Virus record (IMG/VR): IMGVR_UViG_3300045973_000430
Coordinates: 1 to 41,546 of that record
Direction: 5' to 3' (one strand)
Length of the DNA: 41,546 nucleotides
Source of the DNA: a virus
Shown here one piece after another: positions 11,149-23,360 of this stretch. Position numbers and translations under genes: made by a program. The notes beneath the pieces were generated by a model, which saw nothing but the letters and a program-made list of their open reading frames with translations, was not told the DNA's origin and ran no database searches. How positions within the stretch are numbered: the first letter of the stretch is position 1; every line of letters begins with the position of its first letter.

Positions 11149-12753
11149 TCAGGCTGCCCTTTTGGCACCCTCTCCACGTGTCAAAACGAGCGTTTTGGTT
11201 CGTAGAGTGCCCAGCACGGGGAGCCACTTGCCGCCACTGCGAACCGCCGAGCTGCCCAAGCTCAGCATGCGGCCTTCGCTGTAGTCGATTTCCACCGTGT
11301 CGCCGCGCACCGTGGCCTGCTCCACAAACGATCCAAAAAACACCCGCAGCTTTTTCGGGTCTTTGCAGTCCTGTACAAGGCCGCGCAGCAGGCCAGTGAC
11401 CTCCTCCACGTCCAGCGCTGGCGCGTCCAGCGGCCCAATAGGCTCCTCCTCCAGCTTGATGATGCTCTGCTCCAGCGCTTTTACCTGAGCGTTCAACTCG
11501 CGCAGGCGTGGCCCCATATCAGCAAGGTTTGGCGCATCGGTGCCCAGCAGCTCTAGCACGCCGTAGAGTTTGCCGCGCTTGGCCTCGGTGGCGCGCAAGT
11601 CCTTCACCAGGGTATCGCGGCGCTGCTGACGGTCGCGCGCCCACTGCCCGCTCATCGCCGTGGCCTCTTCCATGACGCGCTCGACTACTTCGGGCGTGAG
11701 CACCTTGTCCAGCAGCTCGGACACAAGCCACGGGTCTAGCTCATCAACCCGAACAGGCTTAAACCCGCAGGTGATCTTGCCGCGCATGTGACTGCAGCAG
11801 GCGTAATAGTGGTGCCGCTGCCCGTTGCGGCTTGTGCCATTTGTCAGCGTGACGGCCCCGCCGCATGCACCGCAGCGCAGCATGCCAGCAAACACGGCCA
11901 GGCTGCGCGGCGTGCCGCCCACGCGCTCGGGGCGACGGTTCTCAAGGCCTTCCTGAGCGCGCTCAAAGGTCTCAGGCGACACAATCGGCGCGTGGCTGTT
12001 GACGCGTATCCAGACATCGGGCGGGTTGGTCACGCCCTTCCTGACCCGGTTAAAAATGCTGACACCCGCATAAATTTCGTTTGACAACAAGAAATTGACG
12101 GTGTTTTTGGCCCAGGGCCGCCCGCGCTGGAGCTGGCCAGCATCGTTCAACGTCATGGCGATGATTTTCACGCCCGCGCCGCGCAACGACATTTCAAAGA
12201 TCGTCTTGACCGTCTCGGCCTCAACTGGATGCGGCACCAGGCGGCGGCGCTTGCCATCGGCGATGGTTGAAAACCCAAAGGGCACGCGCCCACCCATGAA
12301 ATACCCATCGCTGCCCGCCTTGAGCATCGAGCGCCGGGTGTCTGCGCTGACGCGCCTGCTGACGTGTTCGTCAAACAGGGCAAAAAAGTTGTCCATGAGC
12401 CAGCCATCGTCTGTGCTTGTGTCCACGTCGCCCGAAACGTATGTCAGCCGCGTGCGGTGCGACTTCAGGATCAGCTTGTAGCGGGCCGCGTCCATGACAT
12501 TTCTGGCAAAACGGCTGCTCGACCAGGTGATGAAGTGGTCCACGTCCATGAGCGAACAGAAATTGATGGCCTCCTGAAAGCCTGGGCGTTTATCTGTTGT
12601 TCCCGATATACCGCCATCTACAAATTCGCGCAACACCTCGGCCCCAAGGGCTTCGGCCTTTTCGCGGCACCGGGCGAGTTGGCTTTCAATCGGCAGGCCG
12701 TCATCGGCTTGGCGTTTGCTGCTCACTCGCGCATAAATAATGGCTTTTTTCAT
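11149..12753 (-). CDS. Large serine recombinase
   Basis: A 534-residue site-specific recombinase. Residues 1-150 form the resolvase catalytic domain with YARVSS (candidate nucleophile Ser11) and ITWSSSRFARN. A recombinase domain follows (PHPVEAETVKTIFEM, then the GRPWAKNTVNFLLSNEIYAG region), then a zinc-ribbon domain with CGACGG and later CC and C residues near 300-335, and a coiled-coil region at about 380-430. This is the full architecture and length of a phage integrase of the large serine group. Its ATG overlaps the stop of the upstream regulator-like gene (ATGA), and a terminator follows. It could integrate the phage into the host chromosome or act on host or plasmid sites. The genome also carries two tyrosine recombinases. 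Confidence 0.93.
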   Translation of the reverse strand: MKKAIIYARVSSKRQADDGLPIESQLARCREKAEALGAEVLREFVDGGISGTTDKRPGFQEAINFCSLMDVDHFITWSSSRFARNVMDAARYKLILKSHRTRLTYVSGDVDTSTDDGWLMDNFFALFDEHVSRRVSADTRRSMLKAGSDGYFMGGRVPFGFSTIADGKRRRLVPHPVEAETVKTIFEMSLRGAGVKIIAMTLNDAGQLQRGRPWAKNTVNFLLSNEIYAGVSIFNRVRKGVTNPPDVWIRVNSHAPIVSPETFERAQEGLENRRPERVGGTPRSLAVFAGMLRCGACGGAVTLTNGTSRNGQRHHYYACCSHMRGKITCGFKPVRVDELDPWLVSELLDKVLTPEVVERVMEEATAMSGQWARDRQQRRDTLVKDLRATEAKRGKLYGVLELLGTDAPNLADMGPRLRELNAQVKALEQSIIKLEEEPIGPLDAPALDVEEVTGLLRGLVQDCKDPKKLRVFFGSFVEQATVRGDTVEIDYSEGRMLSLGSSAVRSGGKWLPVLGTLRTKTLVLTRGEGAKRAA

Positions 12754-13477: not shown

Positions 13478-14506
13478 TCAGGAAGGCAGGCGCTTGAGCA
13501 ATTCAGACACCGGCGTCTTCATCTTCGCCAGCGGCCCATGCTGATCGACTGCCGTGAACTTCCTGCGCGCAGCCAGGTGCGTGTAAATCGAGGTGCTCTT
13601 GATGTCTTCATGGCCCATCAGATCCTGCACGGCAGCTGTAGCCACATTGCCTTCGGTCAGCTCGGTTCCATACAAGTGACGCATCGCATGCGGGTGCAGC
13701 TCAGAAGCAGGTATGCCCAGGCGCTTGCCATACCTTTGAATCATGTCGTGGACAGCCTTGCGCGTGAGGCGGCGCGCCTCGCCCCGGTGCTCATCAGCGG
13801 GCAGCTTTGTCGAGCGCATCGACACAAACACCACACGATCAGGCGGCTGGCCCAGGGGCGCGGGCAGGTCGCGGTCGATCTCGGCCAGCTCCTCATGCTC
13901 CAAATACACCCTCACCTGCATTTCAGCCTCTTGAGGGATAGGGACGATCCGGTCTTTCCGCCCCTTTTCTGTGACCCGCAGCGCAAGGCGAACGCGGCCC
14001 TCGATCTGCACGTTGGTGAAGTGGCTTTCATTGATGCCCACCAGGCCCGACACACGCAGCCCGCAGCCCATCATCAGCGACAGCATGGCCGCGTCGCGCA
14101 GGCCAATCAGCGTGTTCAAGTCCGGGGCCCACATCAGCTTCTCAGAATTCTCCAGGGAGATCGTGCGCGGCAGCGGGCGGCCCGTCTTCGGGTGCGAGAT
14201 GCTTGACGCCAGATTGCTGCGCACAAGGCCGCGTGCCAGGGCGTAGGTATAAAAGCCCTTCACCGCCGAAATGTAGGGAATCCGGCTGCGCGCCACGATC
14301 CCTTTTTTGTGCAGCCAAAGCCCGCAGAAAGTTTCGAGCTCGACAGGATCAGCCTCCAGCAGCGGGCGGCCCCGCATGAATTCCTGCAGCTTTTTCAGCG
14401 CCATCGAGTACGCCTCGATAGTGCGCTCACTGCGACCGCGAGAGTGCTGCAGCCACTGCAGCCATTCGTCGATGACCACGAAATTCTTAACGGTTTCAGT
14501 AGCCAT
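13478..14506 (-). CDS. XerD-like tyrosine recombinase
   Basis: A complete 342-residue tyrosine recombinase. The N-terminal core-binding domain (about 10-105) has RSERTIEAYSMALKKL; the catalytic domain has Arg151 (GLRVSG), Lys181 (EKGRKDR), His273 and Arg276 (HPHAMRH), His299 (GHEDI) and Tyr308 (SIYTH). Length and motif spacing match XerC/XerD-type enzymes. The ATG at 14506 has an AGGTGGA ribosome-binding site; a GTG three codons upstream is the alternative. It has its own AT-rich upstream region and lies apart from the other operons, next to the noncoding region with DnaA boxes. It could integrate the phage at a dif-like site or resolve multimers of a plasmid form. Confidence 0.92.
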   Translation of the reverse strand: MATETVKNFVVIDEWLQWLQHSRGRSERTIEAYSMALKKLQEFMRGRPLLEADPVELETFCGLWLHKKGIVARSRIPYISAVKGFYTYALARGLVRSNLASSISHPKTGRPLPRTISLENSEKLMWAPDLNTLIGLRDAAMLSLMMGCGLRVSGLVGINESHFTNVQIEGRVRLALRVTEKGRKDRIVPIPQEAEMQVRVYLEHEELAEIDRDLPAPLGQPPDRVVFVSMRSTKLPADEHRGEARRLTRKAVHDMIQRYGKRLGIPASELHPHAMRHLYGTELTEGNVATAAVQDLMGHEDIKSTSIYTHLAARRKFTAVDQHGPLAKMKTPVSELLKRLPS

Positions 14507-14679
14507 CAAATCCACCTAATTATTATTTGTTGCTAATTTGCAGTTAAATGAATTTAAAAAGCAAAAAATACATACCAAAACACTTAATAAAACCATGCTG
14601 GTGACCGCGCCAAAATGGTCACGCTGCAGCGCTCGGCGGCGGCGCGGCACCGGCTGGCCATCAAGCCCAGACAGCTGGC

Positions 14680-17852: not shown

Positions 17853-18166
17853 GGTGTTGGGTCAGGTTCTGAGGAGAGTTTCACAATTCCGAACTCGGCC
17901 AGGTGAGCCATGCAGCGCTCCACCTCCGAGTTTTTGAGGCGTTTTTTTGGTTCTTGGGGCAGCGTCTCGCGCTGCAGGTCATCCGCGCTGAACGGCCCCA
18001 CGCGGCCAGCGCTGGCCGCACAGACCATGAAGGTCCAGATGTAAATGGCCAGCGACACGTCGGCGTGTTGCCACTGCATTTGCAGGCGCATGAATGTGTC
18101 GGTGGGAATGTCTGCCGCGCCATCGGTGCGCACTGGTGGCAGTTCGGCGAGTTGAATCTTGATCAT
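17849..18166 (-). CDS. Unknown early protein (105 aa), winged-helix-like
   Basis: The protein starts MIKIQLAELPPVRTDG. It has a helical middle (VSLAIYIWTFMVCAASAG) and a VGPFSADDLQRE segment followed by a charged helix and FGIVKLSS, suggesting a small winged-helix or related helical domain. The ATG overlaps the stop of the upstream gene (ATGA) with a GGAG ribosome-binding site, and its own stop overlaps the winged-helix gene. It may act together with that protein. No family recognised. Confidence 0.65.
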   Translation of the reverse strand: MIKIQLAELPPVRTDGAADIPTDTFMRLQMQWQHADVSLAIYIWTFMVCAASAGRVGPFSADDLQRETLPQEPKKRLKNSEVERCMAHLAEFGIVKLSSEPDPTP

Positions 18167-18435
18167 CGGGTGCTCCAAAAAAGTTGAAGCCCGATTGTCA
18201 AGCCCACCAAGACCATGAAGTGCCGCCACCAGCTGCGCGCCTTGCGCCGCTCTGCCCCGAGGGTGCAGTACATCAGCGCCAGGTCAATGTCGGCAAGCTG
18301 GCGCGTCGGCGAGCGCTTGAAGACCACAAACGGAACGCCCTGCACCCGGTTGCGCGGGTTGCCGGTGATTTTTGCCCGCCGGGCCTTGAGCTGGTCCGGC
18401 GAGTAGCGCATGAACAAATTGAATGCGCGGGTCAT
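18163..18435 (-). CDS. Small tail-anchored membrane protein (90 aa)
   Basis: Residues 1-70 are basic and soluble-looking (YSPDQLKARRAKITGNPRN), and one hydrophobic segment (HFMVLVGLTIGLQLFW) ends the protein, as in a tail-anchored protein with its N-terminus in the cytoplasm. It starts 4 bases after the ASCH gene's stop. Holin-like roles are conceivable but it sits in the early operon. Function unknown. Confidence 0.6.
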   Translation of the reverse strand: MTRAFNLFMRYSPDQLKARRAKITGNPRNRVQGVPFVVFKRSPTRQLADIDLALMYCTLGAERRKARSWWRHFMVLVGLTIGLQLFWSTR

Positions 18436-18834: not shown

Positions 18835-19385
18835 CACAGCGCACCTCCACAACGCCGGGCCAGCTCGACAAGCCACACGGCCAGCGCGGGCGGCGTGTGT
18901 TCGCGCTCTGCTTTGCTGACTTCTGGCCGGTCTTTTTTGCGTGAGTTGATGACGTGCGTGGGGTAAGCCAGACTCAGCGGCATATCGGGGATTTGAGCTG
19001 GCTCACAGCCCACGATGTACAACCGCGTTGCCTTTTCGGCACGGTGCCCCCAGCTGCTTTGCAAAATTGGCAAAGTCCAGCCGCCGAACGTGTCGCGCTG
19101 TCCAGGTGCTGGCAGGCCCGCAGCCGCCCAGAGTGTCGAGCTGGCCGGATGCTCCAGCACCCCGCCGAACTGTCTCACCTGTTGCACGGCAAACAAGGCC
19201 AGCGCCTTTTCATCGGGGCGCGGTTTTGCCATATGGCGAAGCCGTCCCCATGCCCTGCACGGCGGATGAGCCACCACGGGCGCGCCACCTGTCCAGGTGC
19301 GGGCGTCTCGCCCGGCGTCGTATACGTCCGTGCCCTGCAACGTCTTGTAAACGCTGTCAGCACGGGCAAACAATACGGCTATCAC
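18834..19385 (-). CDS. Phage protein resembling cytosine-C5 methyltransferases
   Basis: A 183-residue protein starting at a GTG that overlaps the upstream stop (GTGA). The core has VVAHPPCRAWG at about 38-48, similar to the PPC catalytic loop of DNA cytosine-C5 methyltransferases, then GGVLEHPASSTLW and DTFGGWTLPI. It is far too short for a full enzyme and lacks a visible cofactor-binding Gly motif at the N-terminus. I associate this pattern with a widespread uncharacterised phage family. It could be a reduced enzyme or a derivative with another job. It ends against the ASCH gene. Confidence 0.65.
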   Translation of the reverse strand: MIAVLFARADSVYKTLQGTDVYDAGRDARTWTGGAPVVAHPPCRAWGRLRHMAKPRPDEKALALFAVQQVRQFGGVLEHPASSTLWAAAGLPAPGQRDTFGGWTLPILQSSWGHRAEKATRLYIVGCEPAQIPDMPLSLAYPTHVINSRKKDRPEVSKAEREHTPPALAVWLVELARRCGGAL

Positions 19386-19576
19386 GACAGCACCCGATAA
19401 AGCAATTGGCCAGCCCAGCCGGTAACCACAAACCAGAAAATCACCGCCAGCAGCACCGTCATGTCGGTTTGCCTGAACCGTCGGCCCGATGCAAGGCACC
19501 AGGCATTGAAGCTGATCAGCAGCGCGCCCGAGACGAACAGCAAAATCAGCAGCGCGATCAATGTGGTCGATGTCAT
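19382..19576 (-). CDS. Two-helix small membrane protein (64 aa)
   Basis: Two hydrophobic segments (residues about 4-28, LIALLILLFVSGALLISF, and 39-60, MTVLLAVIFWFVVTGWAG) are joined by a basic turn (ASGRRFRQTD). Size and layout would suit a class II-type holin, but it lies in the early operon with no lysis enzyme beside it. The ATG overlaps the upstream stop (ATGA) and its stop overlaps the next GTG. Confidence 0.65.
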   Translation of the reverse strand: MTSTTLIALLILLFVSGALLISFNAWCLASGRRFRQTDMTVLLAVIFWFVVTGWAGQLLYRVLS

Positions 19577-20094
19577 GCAACCTCCAGCACCGTGCGGCCA
19601 ACAGCGTGACCGGCCAGCGCATTGCGCGCCTTGATGGCCACACGCGTCAACGCGTCAAAAAACTCAGCTTGAGACACAAACTGGAGCTGGATTTCGTGGA
19701 TCTCCATCGCGTCTTTGACAACTTGCATACGGCGCTCGCCGGGCACCCACGTTTGGGTAAAGCTGTATCGCGTTGCCAGCACTTCGAGCGCCAGCAGCAC
19801 CGCGCCAAACTTGTGCGCGTGGTCGTTGCACAGGTTGTAAGGCGGCTTGGCCAACAGCTCGCCGACGTTGAACGCATCGACCAGCGAGCGGAAATGTTCG
19901 GTGGTGAACGTGCCGATCTGCAGCGCCGCCACCGCCTCAAGGCACGGCGTGAGAATGTAGTCGCGTTGCGCGGGCGTCAGCTTGGCCACCTGAACTTTGA
20001 CCTGGCTCATGAGGTCAGCGGGCTTCTGCTCCATCTTGACCACTGTGCGGCGCATGTTCTGCGCACTCAGCATCCGGGTGTTGTTCGATTTCAT
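19573..20094 (-). CDS. Unknown helical early protein (173 aa)
   Basis: The protein is helical, with a basic N-terminus (MKSNNTRMLSAQNMRRT), KLTPAQRDYILTP in the middle and a long C-terminal helical part (EFFDALTRVAIKARNALAG). No membrane segment or motif is recognisable. Its start overlaps the stop of the large membrane protein gene (ATGA) and its stop overlaps the 64-residue membrane protein gene, so all three are co-translated and may work together. Confidence 0.65.
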   Translation of the reverse strand: MKSNNTRMLSAQNMRRTVVKMEQKPADLMSQVKVQVAKLTPAQRDYILTPCLEAVAALQIGTFTTEHFRSLVDAFNVGELLAKPPYNLCNDHAHKFGAVLLALEVLATRYSFTQTWVPGERRMQVVKDAMEIHEIQLQFVSQAEFFDALTRVAIKARNALAGHAVGRTVLEVA

Positions 20095-21935
20095 GCTTGG
20101 TCTCCCAGCAGGCTGAGCTGTTCGCTCTTTGGCTTAGATTTTGATTTGGCCGTGGTCTTGGCCTTGGCCTTGTCTTTGTTGAGCTGCGCGGCGTATTTCG
20201 GCGCGAGCATGTAGCGATTTCCCTTGCGCACCAGCACGCCGTCCCGAACCATGCCGCGTTGGTAGCCACGCGCCACTTCCGTGCTGCAGGGCACATCGGC
20301 AATGATCAGATTTGCCACGGTCGGCTTGAGGCCGCCCATCACCGCCTCTTTCAGGCGGCGGAATCGGTAGCCGTCATGCTCGCCGGTGCCCGTGTCAACC
20401 TGCGGCCCGAGCTTGCGCCCTGTCGTGGTTTTTCGTGCTTTATTGAGCACGATTTCAGCAGCATGTTCAGGCTCTGCAGCAGGCGCTTGAACGATGGTTT
20501 CATGCTCTGGCGCTGCAGCAGGTGCGACAGGCTCAGCAGGCACATCGTTTTGTGCTGGATTCGACACAATTTCAAGCGCTTGTTCTGGTGCTGGCGCTGC
20601 AGGTGCAGGGGTTTCAGCGCGCTCTTTTGGCACCAGCTTCAGCTCGAATGAAGGCTTTGCAGCGGGCTTTTCATGCTCCTCGGCTTGTGCTGGATTGAAC
20701 ATGATGGCCCGTGCCATTTCAAGGCCGTGATCAGCAGCAGCCGGTGCCGTTTTCGGCAGGGCAGGGGAGAGGGTCAGCTCTGGCGCTGGCGCTGGCTCGG
20801 GTGCCAATTCCGGCGCTGGCGCTGGTGCGGCTGGCGCGGCTGGTTCGGCTGGTGCGGCAGTGTCGTCGTTGGCTGCGAGCTTGGGCGCTTTCTGCGCTTC
20901 CAGCTTGATCGAATACTCCACACGCGGCTGAGCTGGCTCTGGCGCTTCGGGCGCTTTGGCTGACACGCCAGAAGCGGCACCCACTGCAGCGGGCACCACA
21001 GCGGCCTGCTGCCAGGTGGGCAGCGCCTTTTTGATGCTGGCCGCAATGCGCGCTGTCCATGAAGGCATCGCAGGCACAGCGACCGGGGCAGGGGAGGGCA
21101 CTTTGCCGAACGGGACCGGCGCGGGCGCTGGCTTGCCGAATGCCATTGGCTCGGTTGAGGAAACAGGCGCTGCAGCAGCGTTGACAAAAGCCTGTTGAGC
21201 CTCCACCGCGCTGCCCCGACGCCACAGCGCTCCGCCGAACATCGAGAACATCAGCGCACCAGCACTCAGGCCAAAGCAGCGGGCGACGATCAGGCCGATA
21301 GAGAACGCCAGGCCAAAATTGAACCCCACGATGTTGCCAATGAAATCCATCGTCGTGGTGAGCGTCGGCTGCATCTTCGCCTTCACCACCCTCAAATCTT
21401 CATAAAGTGGTTTGGTCTGCAGCTCCTCATCTGTTGCCTCCCGGCTTGACTTTGCCGCCAGCTTTAGCTCATACGCATCGCGGGCTTTTGACACCTGCAG
21501 ATTTGCCGTCTGGCGCTTTGTGTTGACGCTTGACTCGATGCGGTCAATCCGGGCCTGCAAGCTTGCCGCCTCTGCGCCCAGCTTTGCCTGTGCCATATCT
21601 ACGCTCAAAGCGCCCGAAATCTGGACGATGCAGATGAACAAAAATTCCATCAAAAATATGAAGCCGGAATAGGTGTACAGGGCAGCGCACCAGGCGCGGA
21701 ACCGCTGGCCAGACAGCATGGCAGCCATCCAGCCAGACATCAGCTCTGCAGAGACAAGGGCAATCACGGTGATGACGGCCAGCGCCTTCAGCACAGGATC
21801 AGTTTCCAGCGCTTCCGCGCCGTGGGTAAAGTACCGGATCGTCAGCCAGGTCAGCAGCCCGGAAATGGCGATAGAAGGAACCGCCATCATCCTGTAGTAG
21901 TGGAGGGGGAGGGAGTTCAGGAATTTGAGGTTCAT
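20091..21935 (-). CDS. Membrane protein with long linker and possible C-terminal DNA-binding domain
   Basis: A 614-residue protein with unusual architecture. Hydrophobic segments lie at about 17-36, 49-74, 82-108 and 198-237, with a charged coiled-coil-like stretch at 112-190 between the third and fourth. From about 250 to 510 it is an Ala/Pro/Glu-rich linker with repeated PAPAPE-like units. Residues about 520-590 (YRFRRLKEAVMGGLKPTVAN, CSTEVARGYQRGMVRDGVLV, then RKGNRYML) read as a helix-turn-helix with a wing. The layout would tether DNA binding to the inner membrane. It sits in the middle of the early operon with overlapping starts on both sides. No family recognised; roles could include replication at the membrane, segregation or sensing. 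Confidence 0.75.
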   Translation of the reverse strand: MNLKFLNSLPLHYYRMMAVPSIAISGLLTWLTIRYFTHGAEALETDPVLKALAVITVIALVSAELMSGWMAAMLSGQRFRAWCAALYTYSGFIFLMEFLFICIVQISGALSVDMAQAKLGAEAASLQARIDRIESSVNTKRQTANLQVSKARDAYELKLAAKSSREATDEELQTKPLYEDLRVVKAKMQPTLTTTMDFIGNIVGFNFGLAFSIGLIVARCFGLSAGALMFSMFGGALWRRGSAVEAQQAFVNAAAAPVSSTEPMAFGKPAPAPVPFGKVPSPAPVAVPAMPSWTARIAASIKKALPTWQQAAVVPAAVGAASGVSAKAPEAPEPAQPRVEYSIKLEAQKAPKLAANDDTAAPAEPAAPAAPAPAPELAPEPAPAPELTLSPALPKTAPAAADHGLEMARAIMFNPAQAEEHEKPAAKPSFELKLVPKERAETPAPAAPAPEQALEIVSNPAQNDVPAEPVAPAAAPEHETIVQAPAAEPEHAAEIVLNKARKTTTGRKLGPQVDTGTGEHDGYRFRRLKEAVMGGLKPTVANLIIADVPCSTEVARGYQRGMVRDGVLVRKGNRYMLAPKYAAQLNKDKAKAKTTAKSKSKPKSEQLSLLGDQA

Positions 21936-22231
21936 GCTTTGCTCACTACACGGGCTATACCGGCGCGGATGCGCTGGCTATTCAAATTGAGTTCGCGGGC
22001 GTAATCGATCTGAGGTTTTTTCTCTTCGATCTTGGCGGCCTTGATGCGTCCTGCAGACATGGCCCACTCTTTGGCCTCGATGGTGTCTTTGTGGAAATTG
22101 GCGACAAGCTCGACGCGGCATTCATTGCCTTCGTACAGGCGAACGCGCTGGATCATTGAGCCGTCTGGCTGCTGCACGGGCATGGCCCAGTCGATGCGGT
22201 CGGCTTCGAGTTGGATGATGGCGGTTTTCAT
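21932..22231 (-). CDS. Unknown early protein (99 aa)
   Basis: The protein starts MKTAIIQLEADRIDWAMPVQ, with beta-like strands in the first half (RVRLYEGNECRVELVANF) and a basic helical second half (GRIKAAKIEEKKPQIDYAREL). Its start and stop both overlap neighbours by ATGA. No motif recognised. Confidence 0.65.
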   Translation of the reverse strand: MKTAIIQLEADRIDWAMPVQQPDGSMIQRVRLYEGNECRVELVANFHKDTIEAKEWAMSAGRIKAAKIEEKKPQIDYARELNLNSQRIRAGIARVVSKA

Positions 22232-22623
22232 GGGCGAATCCTTCCTGCGCTGGCCAAGTTGTAATTTTTTCCGCGACCTTTGAGCTTGAGGTCAAAGGCC
22301 CATCGCTCAAATTCGTTGCCCGTCGAGTACGTGTCGTTGTAAAAGGCATCGAGCAGCGCATGCACTTCGCAATACGTGCGGCGTGCATCCATCTCCAGCA
22401 CGGTCAGCGCCGCGTCGAGGTTTTCTGAGTCAAAAGAGCGCAGGGCGGTCAGGTCGTAGGGAAAGCGGGTGCCGTTGTACAGGCCCAGCAGCAGCTGAGC
22501 CGCAGCATTGCCGCCGCCGGTGCCCAGGTGCTGCTTTGCAGTGCGATACATCAGCGTGATGGCGTCGATCTGCTTGTCGCTGTAGTTGGCCAGCAGCTGG
22601 GAGGAGGGGAGGGTAGTCATCAT
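22228..22623 (-). CDS. Unknown helical protein (131 aa), DUF7673-like
   Basis: The sequence has AAQLLLGLYNGTRFPYDLTALR then AALTVLEMDARRTYCEVHALL, a pattern I associate with a small uncharacterised family (DUF7673-type) found in proteobacterial plasmids and phages; this is from memory and not checked. It begins MMTTLPSSQ with its ATG overlapping the recombinase stop. Function unknown. Confidence 0.65.
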   Translation of the reverse strand: MMTTLPSSQLLANYSDKQIDAITLMYRTAKQHLGTGGGNAAAQLLLGLYNGTRFPYDLTALRSFDSENLDAALTVLEMDARRTYCEVHALLDAFYNDTYSTGNEFERWAFDLKLKGRGKNYNLASAGRIRP

Positions 22624-23360
22624 GCCCGTGCTCCCTGTGCCGCGCGCTTGGCATCGGCCTTGTGCATGCGGCCCGAGCTGCTGGCCACGACCTGCATGGA
22701 CTCGGCAAAGTACTCGCGATTCATGTGGGTGTAAATCTGCGTCGAGCTTAGGCTGCGGTGGTTTAGGGCACGCTTAATGACCAGCAGCGCATCGTCTCCC
22801 CGGTGCGTATCCATGATGTTCATTGCCAGCGTGTGGCGCAGCCAGTGCGGGCTGATGCGGCTGTCCAGATTGGCGGCCACGGCCCAGTGCTTCAGGCGGG
22901 CCTCGTAAGAGCGGACGCTCAGAGCCGATGCGCTGGCGCTGGGCTCAAAGTCAAAACCAGCGTCAAGGCTGATTTTCTCCAGCGGCGTCAGCGCCCCGGC
23001 GCGGCCAGTGCGGCCCCACACCAGAGGCTGCACACCAAACAGCATGCCCTGCGCCTGATCGTCGCTGATTTTGATCAGCGCCTTGAGGTGGTGGTAAAGC
23101 TGAATGGTGATGCAGTAGCTGTTTTCCTCGCGCCTTCCCTTGCAGTCTTCTTTTTTTGAAAACAGCCAGCCGGTGGCGATCGCCTGGCGCACCATCGGCA
23201 CTGTCAGGCGGCTGAACTCGGTGATGCGCATGCCGGTCAGGATGAGCGTGGCCATCCAGTGGTAATCACGCTGGGCCAGCGGGCAGGCTTGGCTCTTTGC
23301 AGCGTTGAGCAGTTCGCGCTGCTCAGGCTTTGTCAAATATCGCTCAGTTGCGTTATTCAT
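22620..23360 (-). CDS. Short tyrosine recombinase (catalytic domain only)
   Basis: A 246-residue tyrosine recombinase with the catalytic set Arg45 (TGMRITE), His172 and Arg175 (HWLRH), His201 (NHRSL) and Tyr210 (QIYTH). The sequence starts only about 40 residues before the first Arg, so the core-binding domain found in typical phage integrases is missing. The ATG has a GGGAGAAA ribosome-binding site and a terminator-like hairpin lies just upstream, so no longer frame has been cut off by a wrong start. Plasmids carry recombinases of similar short form. It heads the coupled early operon. It may be a resolvase, an inversion enzyme or an integrase using few contacts. Confidence 0.88.
   Translation of the reverse strand: MNNATERYLTKPEQRELLNAAKSQACPLAQRDYHWMATLILTGMRITEFSRLTVPMVRQAIATGWLFSKKEDCKGRREENSYCITIQLYHHLKALIKISDDQAQGMLFGVQPLVWGRTGRAGALTPLEKISLDAGFDFEPSASASALSVRSYEARLKHWAVAANLDSRISPHWLRHTLAMNIMDTHRGDDALLVIKRALNHRSLSSTQIYTHMNREYFAESMQVVASSSGRMHKADAKRAAQGARA

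Follow-up and report, generated by a model that had tools for sequence, protein, structure and literature searches.

The gene at positions 20091-21935 (minus strand) of a viral contig from IMG/VR encodes a 614-residue protein in which four N-terminal hydrophobic helices, a charged helical hairpin, a long Ala/Pro-rich linker and a predicted C-terminal winged helix are joined, and its relatives on plasmids and other mobile elements are placed by replication and partition genes. We propose that the protein is an inner-membrane anchor with a DNA-binding domain, which may tether the DNA of the element, or its replication complex, to the membrane, a reading to which we give about an even chance. Whether bacterial plasmids and phages fix their DNA to the membrane while it is replicated and segregated has long been asked, yet few anchors have been identified. 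The family described here offers concrete candidates, located beside rep, parA and parB on natural plasmids and carrying a membrane part and a predicted DNA-binding part in one polypeptide. That membrane-anchored DNA-binding proteins serve phage replication and plasmid partition is already known in principle.

Domain layout of the window protein

The window, by which we mean the whole stretch of DNA analysed, is a viral contig 41,546 bases long, and since head, packaging, tail-length and integrase genes are present on it, its gene content makes it look like a temperate tailed phage. The gene under study is an exact and complete open reading frame with an ATG start. Judged by comparison of its translation with those of relatives it is not a chance frame, because divergent homologues retain the identical domain order.

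Hydropathy gives four hydrophobic blocks, at about residues 15-36, 48-70, 88-112 and 197-238, and the structure model also gives four transmembrane (TM) segments. TM1 (21828-21893; like all features of the protein, on the minus strand) was placed by hydropathy, model and loop charges, with the N-terminus predicted inside. Homologue comparison adds to hydropathy and model for TM2 (21726-21794), which carries a conserved Glu (E64), and for TM3 (21600-21674), in which E97 and Q105 are conserved in the Comamonadaceae lineage. TM4 (21222-21347; hydropathy and model) is followed by a Trp-Arg-Arg that is predicted inside. Between TM3 and TM4 lies a charged antiparallel helical hairpin (residues 113-196; 21348-21599), predicted periplasmic from the model and from topology by charge; its tip region is well conserved among homologues. 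In the model of the membrane part, whose overall confidence is low (pTM 0.38), the TM helices are accompanied by a long hairpin of two antiparallel helices (76-149 and 154-188), and Foldseek with this part returned only low-confidence, unspecific matches to helical bundles. Mean net loop charge alternates across 31 members (N-terminus +1.0, loop 1 -2.0, loop 2 +3.1, after TM4 +1.3), and for this reason an N-in/C-in topology seems probable, in which the hairpin would be periplasmic and the linker and winged helix cytoplasmic.

The linker (residues 239-512; 20400-21221) is Ala/Pro/Glu-rich and predicted to be cytoplasmic and flexible; residues 241-510 consist of about 26% Ala, 17% Pro and 9% Glu. 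Its length varies strongly between homologues. Three short stretches of the window linker resemble one another (ARAIMFNPAQ at 408-417, LEIVSNPAQ at 454-462 and AEIVLNKAR at 493-501, spaced about 40-45 residues apart), and linker repeats in the window protein are no better than those of shuffled sequence. Several homologues (L031, L032, L035, L036, L006 and others) conserve a weakly hydrophobic Ala-rich linker stretch, absent in L037, which often follows Trp-Arg-Arg and ends in A-x-A like the end of a signal peptide. We considered this stretch as a fifth conserved TM or signal-like segment and rejected it, as it is absent or weak in other members (-0.6 in L037, 1.1 in the window protein). The linker of one homologue (L038, 8016-9560) contains a zinc-ribbon-like insert with a match to the Lar-like restriction alleviation family phrog_599 (E 9.8e-5 among the members scanned, of which this one was identified by reading its sequence).

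The C-terminal domain (residues 519-577; 20205-20381) is predicted to be a winged helix of three helices and two strands, on the evidence of AlphaFold, Foldseek, the VIA comparison and weak Pfam matches of homologues. An AlphaFold model of residues 505-614, built from two sequences (this segment and the Malikia relative), places helices at 519-533, 541-547 and 552-565 and strands at 568-571 and 574-577 (pLDDT about 70-84), giving a helix-helix-helix-strand-strand topology with a wing and fold neighbours of the GntR, IclR, MarR and FtsK-gamma kind. When the C-terminal model was submitted to Foldseek, all recognisable top rows were winged helices, none with E below 0.001. The VIA comparison scored FtsK gamma at Z 8.2, aligning 58 of its 60 residues with an rmsd of 1.6, and IclR and GntR regulators scored equally well. 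When the C-termini of eleven family members were combined into a profile and searched against the PDB, winged-helix chains were likewise found, the best of which (E 1.4e-4) was the winged helix of a Fic protein and among which FtsK gamma (2j5p) reached only E 0.54. Pfam winged-helix models (GntR, MarR and other wHTH) were matched weakly by many members, the GntR model by 8 of 19. A winged helix is thus a well-supported prediction for this fold, and we infer that it binds DNA.

The first-pass annotation of this sequence had proposed multiple membrane helices, a charged coiled segment, a linker and a C-terminal domain, and this layout is confirmed in the four TM segments, the charged residues 113-196 and the winged helix. 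Its linker is indeed rich in Ala, Pro and Glu, although about 270 rather than some 250 residues long, and its helix-turn-helix-like C-terminus is predicted to be a winged helix instead of a plain helix-turn-helix. The structure prediction that it had suggested for the C-terminus, run here on residues 505-614, yielded the winged helix, so a fold of non-DNA-binding type did not emerge.

Distribution and variation of the family

No match above curated cut-off was obtained for the window protein in Pfam, PHROGs or NCBIfam. Among 50,697 phage records, tblastn found no match to it, nor did any phage record match the Malikia relative used as query, and the DNA of the window between 15 and 25 kb had no similarity in phage records. 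Among the viral contigs of IMG/VR, only a prophage record of Malikia was found besides the window. Plasmids were more informative: with tblastn, the membrane half was matched by a plasmid protein of Comamonadaceae (E 4e-11) and the C-terminal block by two plasmid proteins of Cupriavidus. In full, the Cupriavidus proteins have four TM segments, a coiled segment, an Ala/Pro linker and a C-terminal block starting D-[ST]-G-T-G-E-x-D-G. The Malikia granosa prophage, the one that is also an IMG/VR record, encodes another homologue. With a profile, members were detected in 10 of 401 genomes of Comamonadaceae and, as more distant matches, in another six genomes from a draw of the GTDB class. Full-length forms are also present on three further plasmids; a draw of 399 genomes of the order returned only the already known Malikia genome. 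As far as these sequences tell, this is a rare family, found mainly in Comamonadaceae genomes and on plasmids of Burkholderiales; a second, deeply separated lineage occurs in other gammaproteobacteria (class as in GTDB). It appears to be undescribed in the libraries searched, and since no name is given to it in those family databases, its members are probably annotated everywhere as hypothetical protein.

Both ends of the protein are common to most relatives outside the second lineage. Homologues sharing both ends, the lack of which had been named beforehand as evidence against the first-pass reading, occur in prophages and plasmids, with full-length forms in Cupriavidus, in Malikia granosa and on further plasmids. 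The same annotation had called this an unusual phage protein; it is phage-encoded, but it is not phage-specific, since plasmids and chromosomes carry members too.

Some members are short forms without the C-terminal block, consisting of the membrane and hairpin part only (L034, L040, L045, P0003, L005). The same small genes (c9 and c10) lie upstream in three short-form loci, and a similar small protein adjoins the gene in P0003 and L005. In the second lineage, chromosomal copies (L082, L084-L088) have no winged helix; their C-termini share another conserved block instead, ending RL-[DEN]-E-x-C. When the HTH-like C-terminal block of this lineage was compared by hhalign with the winged helix of the Comamonadaceae proteins, no match emerged (E 0.12, probability 0.5). 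In a tree of the membrane half, copies adjacent to ParA-ParB fall into two groups split by the deepest branch, and the window protein lies on a long branch, grouping with L037 and L038 at 100/99.

Gene neighbourhoods of the homologues and of the window gene

A replication, partition or recombination gene is immediately adjacent to the family gene in 14 of 21 mobile-element loci, where 2.0 would be expected from other genes of those loci, a comparison whose significance is too optimistic because the neighbour classes were chosen after the neighbours had been seen and several of the loci share a genome. The early regions of mobile elements, moreover, often carry replication genes in any case. 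None of the ten chromosomal copies has such an adjacent gene; they are solitary. The solitary chromosomal copies L041, L042 and L044 share a conserved location, flanked on one side by the gene of a DUF1624-like membrane protein and on the other by that of an rRNA methyltransferase-like protein, as named from reading the sequences.

Partition genes recur on the plasmids. On two plasmids, from Cupriavidus oxalaticus and Cupriavidus sp. P-10, it is preceded by rep, parA and parB (Rep3, ParA-type ATPase and ParB_N by Pfam), and on a C. gilardii plasmid it is divergent to an adjacent parA-parB pair. In the second deep lineage, one genome has ParA-ParB directly upstream in two contigs and SSB downstream in one of them. 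In prophage-like loci the neighbours are of several kinds: a DUF3987 protein that comes after a CHC2 zinc-finger protein and has DnaB and SSB in its vicinity (L031, L035); a phage GPA replication protein that overlaps the gene, with DnaB nearby (L037); a DUF927-Toprim protein (L039, L089); HTH_36 proteins (L006, L032, L033, L038); and RecT with YqaJ (L036).

In the window itself the gene belongs to a minus-strand run of overlapping genes. The run begins with a short Xer-like tyrosine recombinase (22620-23360; PF00589, with XerC/XerD-like models below their cut-offs) and continues with a DUF7673 protein (22228-22623), a 99-residue protein (21932-22231), the gene itself, a 173-residue protein matching phrog_20828 (19573-20094) and a 64-residue membrane protein (19382-19576). 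The overlaps of the gene with the 99-residue protein upstream and the 173-residue protein downstream are 4 nt each. The recombinase comprises the catalytic part only and is XerC/D-like, and two integrases, one of the serine type (11149-12753) and one of the tyrosine type (13478-14515), are encoded elsewhere in the same phage. The two small membrane proteins mentioned by the first-pass annotation fit the 64-residue protein, with two hydrophobic stretches, and a 90-residue protein (18163-18435) with one C-terminal hydrophobic stretch, both as read from the translation. The neighbours of the window gene include no recognised replication gene, none of the run neighbours recurs in the homologous loci, and no convincing array of repeats of the origin-iteron kind was found close to the gene. 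The role in the phage of the window is consequently carried over from relatives, by analogy, because no neighbour there is a recognised replication gene. The idea that the protein tethers DNA for replication or segregation, also put forward in the first-pass annotation, is thus supported in part, by the neighbourhoods of the homologues with their replication and partition genes, and tethering remains our interpretation of these placements.

Proposed role and competing explanations

In the mechanism that we envisage, the four N-terminal helices, with both ends of the protein cytoplasmic, would fix it in the inner membrane and hold the helical hairpin in the periplasm, and the long flexible Ala/Pro linker would let the C-terminal winged helix reach DNA. 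The origin or centromere region of the element, or its replication complex, could then be held at the membrane, which may aid replication or segregation. We count against tethering the absence of a replication neighbour in the window, the ten solitary chromosomal copies, the short forms that lack the winged helix and the different C-terminal block in most second-lineage chromosomal copies.

Several known systems resemble this arrangement in part. Phage phi29, which infects a Gram-positive host, uses protein-primed replication, and its p16.7 binds single-stranded DNA and terminal protein; the four-TM, long-linker, winged-helix layout of the window protein differs from the anatomy of p16.7 as generally known, and no relation by sequence was noticed. 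Like the window protein, p16.7 (and p1) is a phage-encoded integral membrane protein, and a role in organising the replication of phage DNA at the membrane, through binding of DNA and terminal protein, has been proposed for p16.7 (PMC4974454). TubY, of the type III TubZRC partition system, binds both DNA and membranes and has a helix-turn-helix, a coiled coil and a Lys-rich tail (PMC7762940). Its helix-turn-helix is N-terminal and of the MerR type, it attaches by an amphipathic tail without TM helices, and it works with TubZ and is encoded beside tubRZ, whereas the present family has a C-terminal winged helix, four TM segments and ParA-ParB (type I) or phage replication neighbours. FtsK and SpoIIIE resemble the window protein in having four TM segments at the N-terminus and a linker that is long and Pro-rich (PMC5357621 for FtsK), followed by a C-terminal winged helix (gamma in FtsK, the domain that reads KOPS; predicted in the window protein), but the window protein has no ATPase motor and has a coiled hairpin between TM3 and TM4. 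No match to the RecA-like FtsK_SpoIIIE motor was found in Pfam or NCBIfam, residues 239-512 being low-complexity linker, and Pfam did not indicate homology to the FtsK TM segments. Having no motor, a C-terminal winged helix and true TM segments, the family is not a member of the p16.7, TubY or FtsK groups. A more far-reaching and rather doubtful possibility is that its members are undescribed, membrane-integral, motor-less "FtsK-like" tethers, shared by ParA-ParB plasmids and temperate phages, which fix the replication or centromere complex at the inner membrane and so represent a third, membrane-bound component of type I partition.

The main rival to tethering is a membrane-bound one-component transcription regulator, in which the periplasmic hairpin would sense a signal or partner and the cytoplasmic winged helix would regulate a promoter. 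The fold neighbours (GntR, MarR, IclR) are of the regulator type, and both the solitary chromosomal copies and the conserved hairpin tip would suit such a role; CadC and ToxR are likewise membrane proteins with a winged-helix domain and a periplasmic part. In those proteins, however, the winged helix is N-terminal and precedes a single TM segment, the reverse of an order in which it follows four TM segments and a long linker, and there is no sequence relation. Copies on mobile elements adjoin replication and partition genes, without a consistent target gene, and across some 270 residues of flexible linker the coupling of a signal to DNA binding would be poor, although regulation by availability would still be possible; we therefore regard a regulator as unlikely, if still a serious competitor. 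Weaker still is the option of a membrane-anchored activator of site-specific recombination or dimer resolution, with a motor-less FtsK-like layout whose gamma-like winged helix would stimulate the Xer-like recombinase of the run. That recombinase does begin the overlapping run, recombinases lie near three plasmid copies (L003, L004, L091), FtsK gamma is among the best structural matches, and the four TM segments and the long Pro-rich linker have counterparts in FtsK (PMC5357621). Yet most loci have no recombinase adjacent to the gene, the match to FtsK gamma is tied with unrelated regulators, and the window protein matched no FtsK family in Pfam or NCBIfam, all of which make this activator improbable.

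The protein might also be an accessory membrane protein, for example in exclusion or host interaction, with a C-terminal fold that is not used for DNA binding. Short membrane-only forms persist, and many winged helices bind proteins or RNA instead; but, short forms aside, many plasmids and prophages conserve the C-terminal block, and the neighbourhood signal concerns DNA replication and partition, so we think an accessory role very improbable. The slightest chance goes to the other weaker option, a replisome recruiter that would attach to the host beta clamp by its C-terminal tail and so draw host replication proteins to the membrane or element. The tail of the window protein is Lys-rich (residues 578-614; 20094-20204) and ends in QLSLL (606-610), which fits the canonical clamp-binding motif, Q-aliphatic-x-[L/M]-[F/L] (PMC11139829). 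Such a motif occurs in 6.7% of shuffled window proteins and is thus not significant, and most family members lack one; the copy in the Malikia prophage ends in QMALI.
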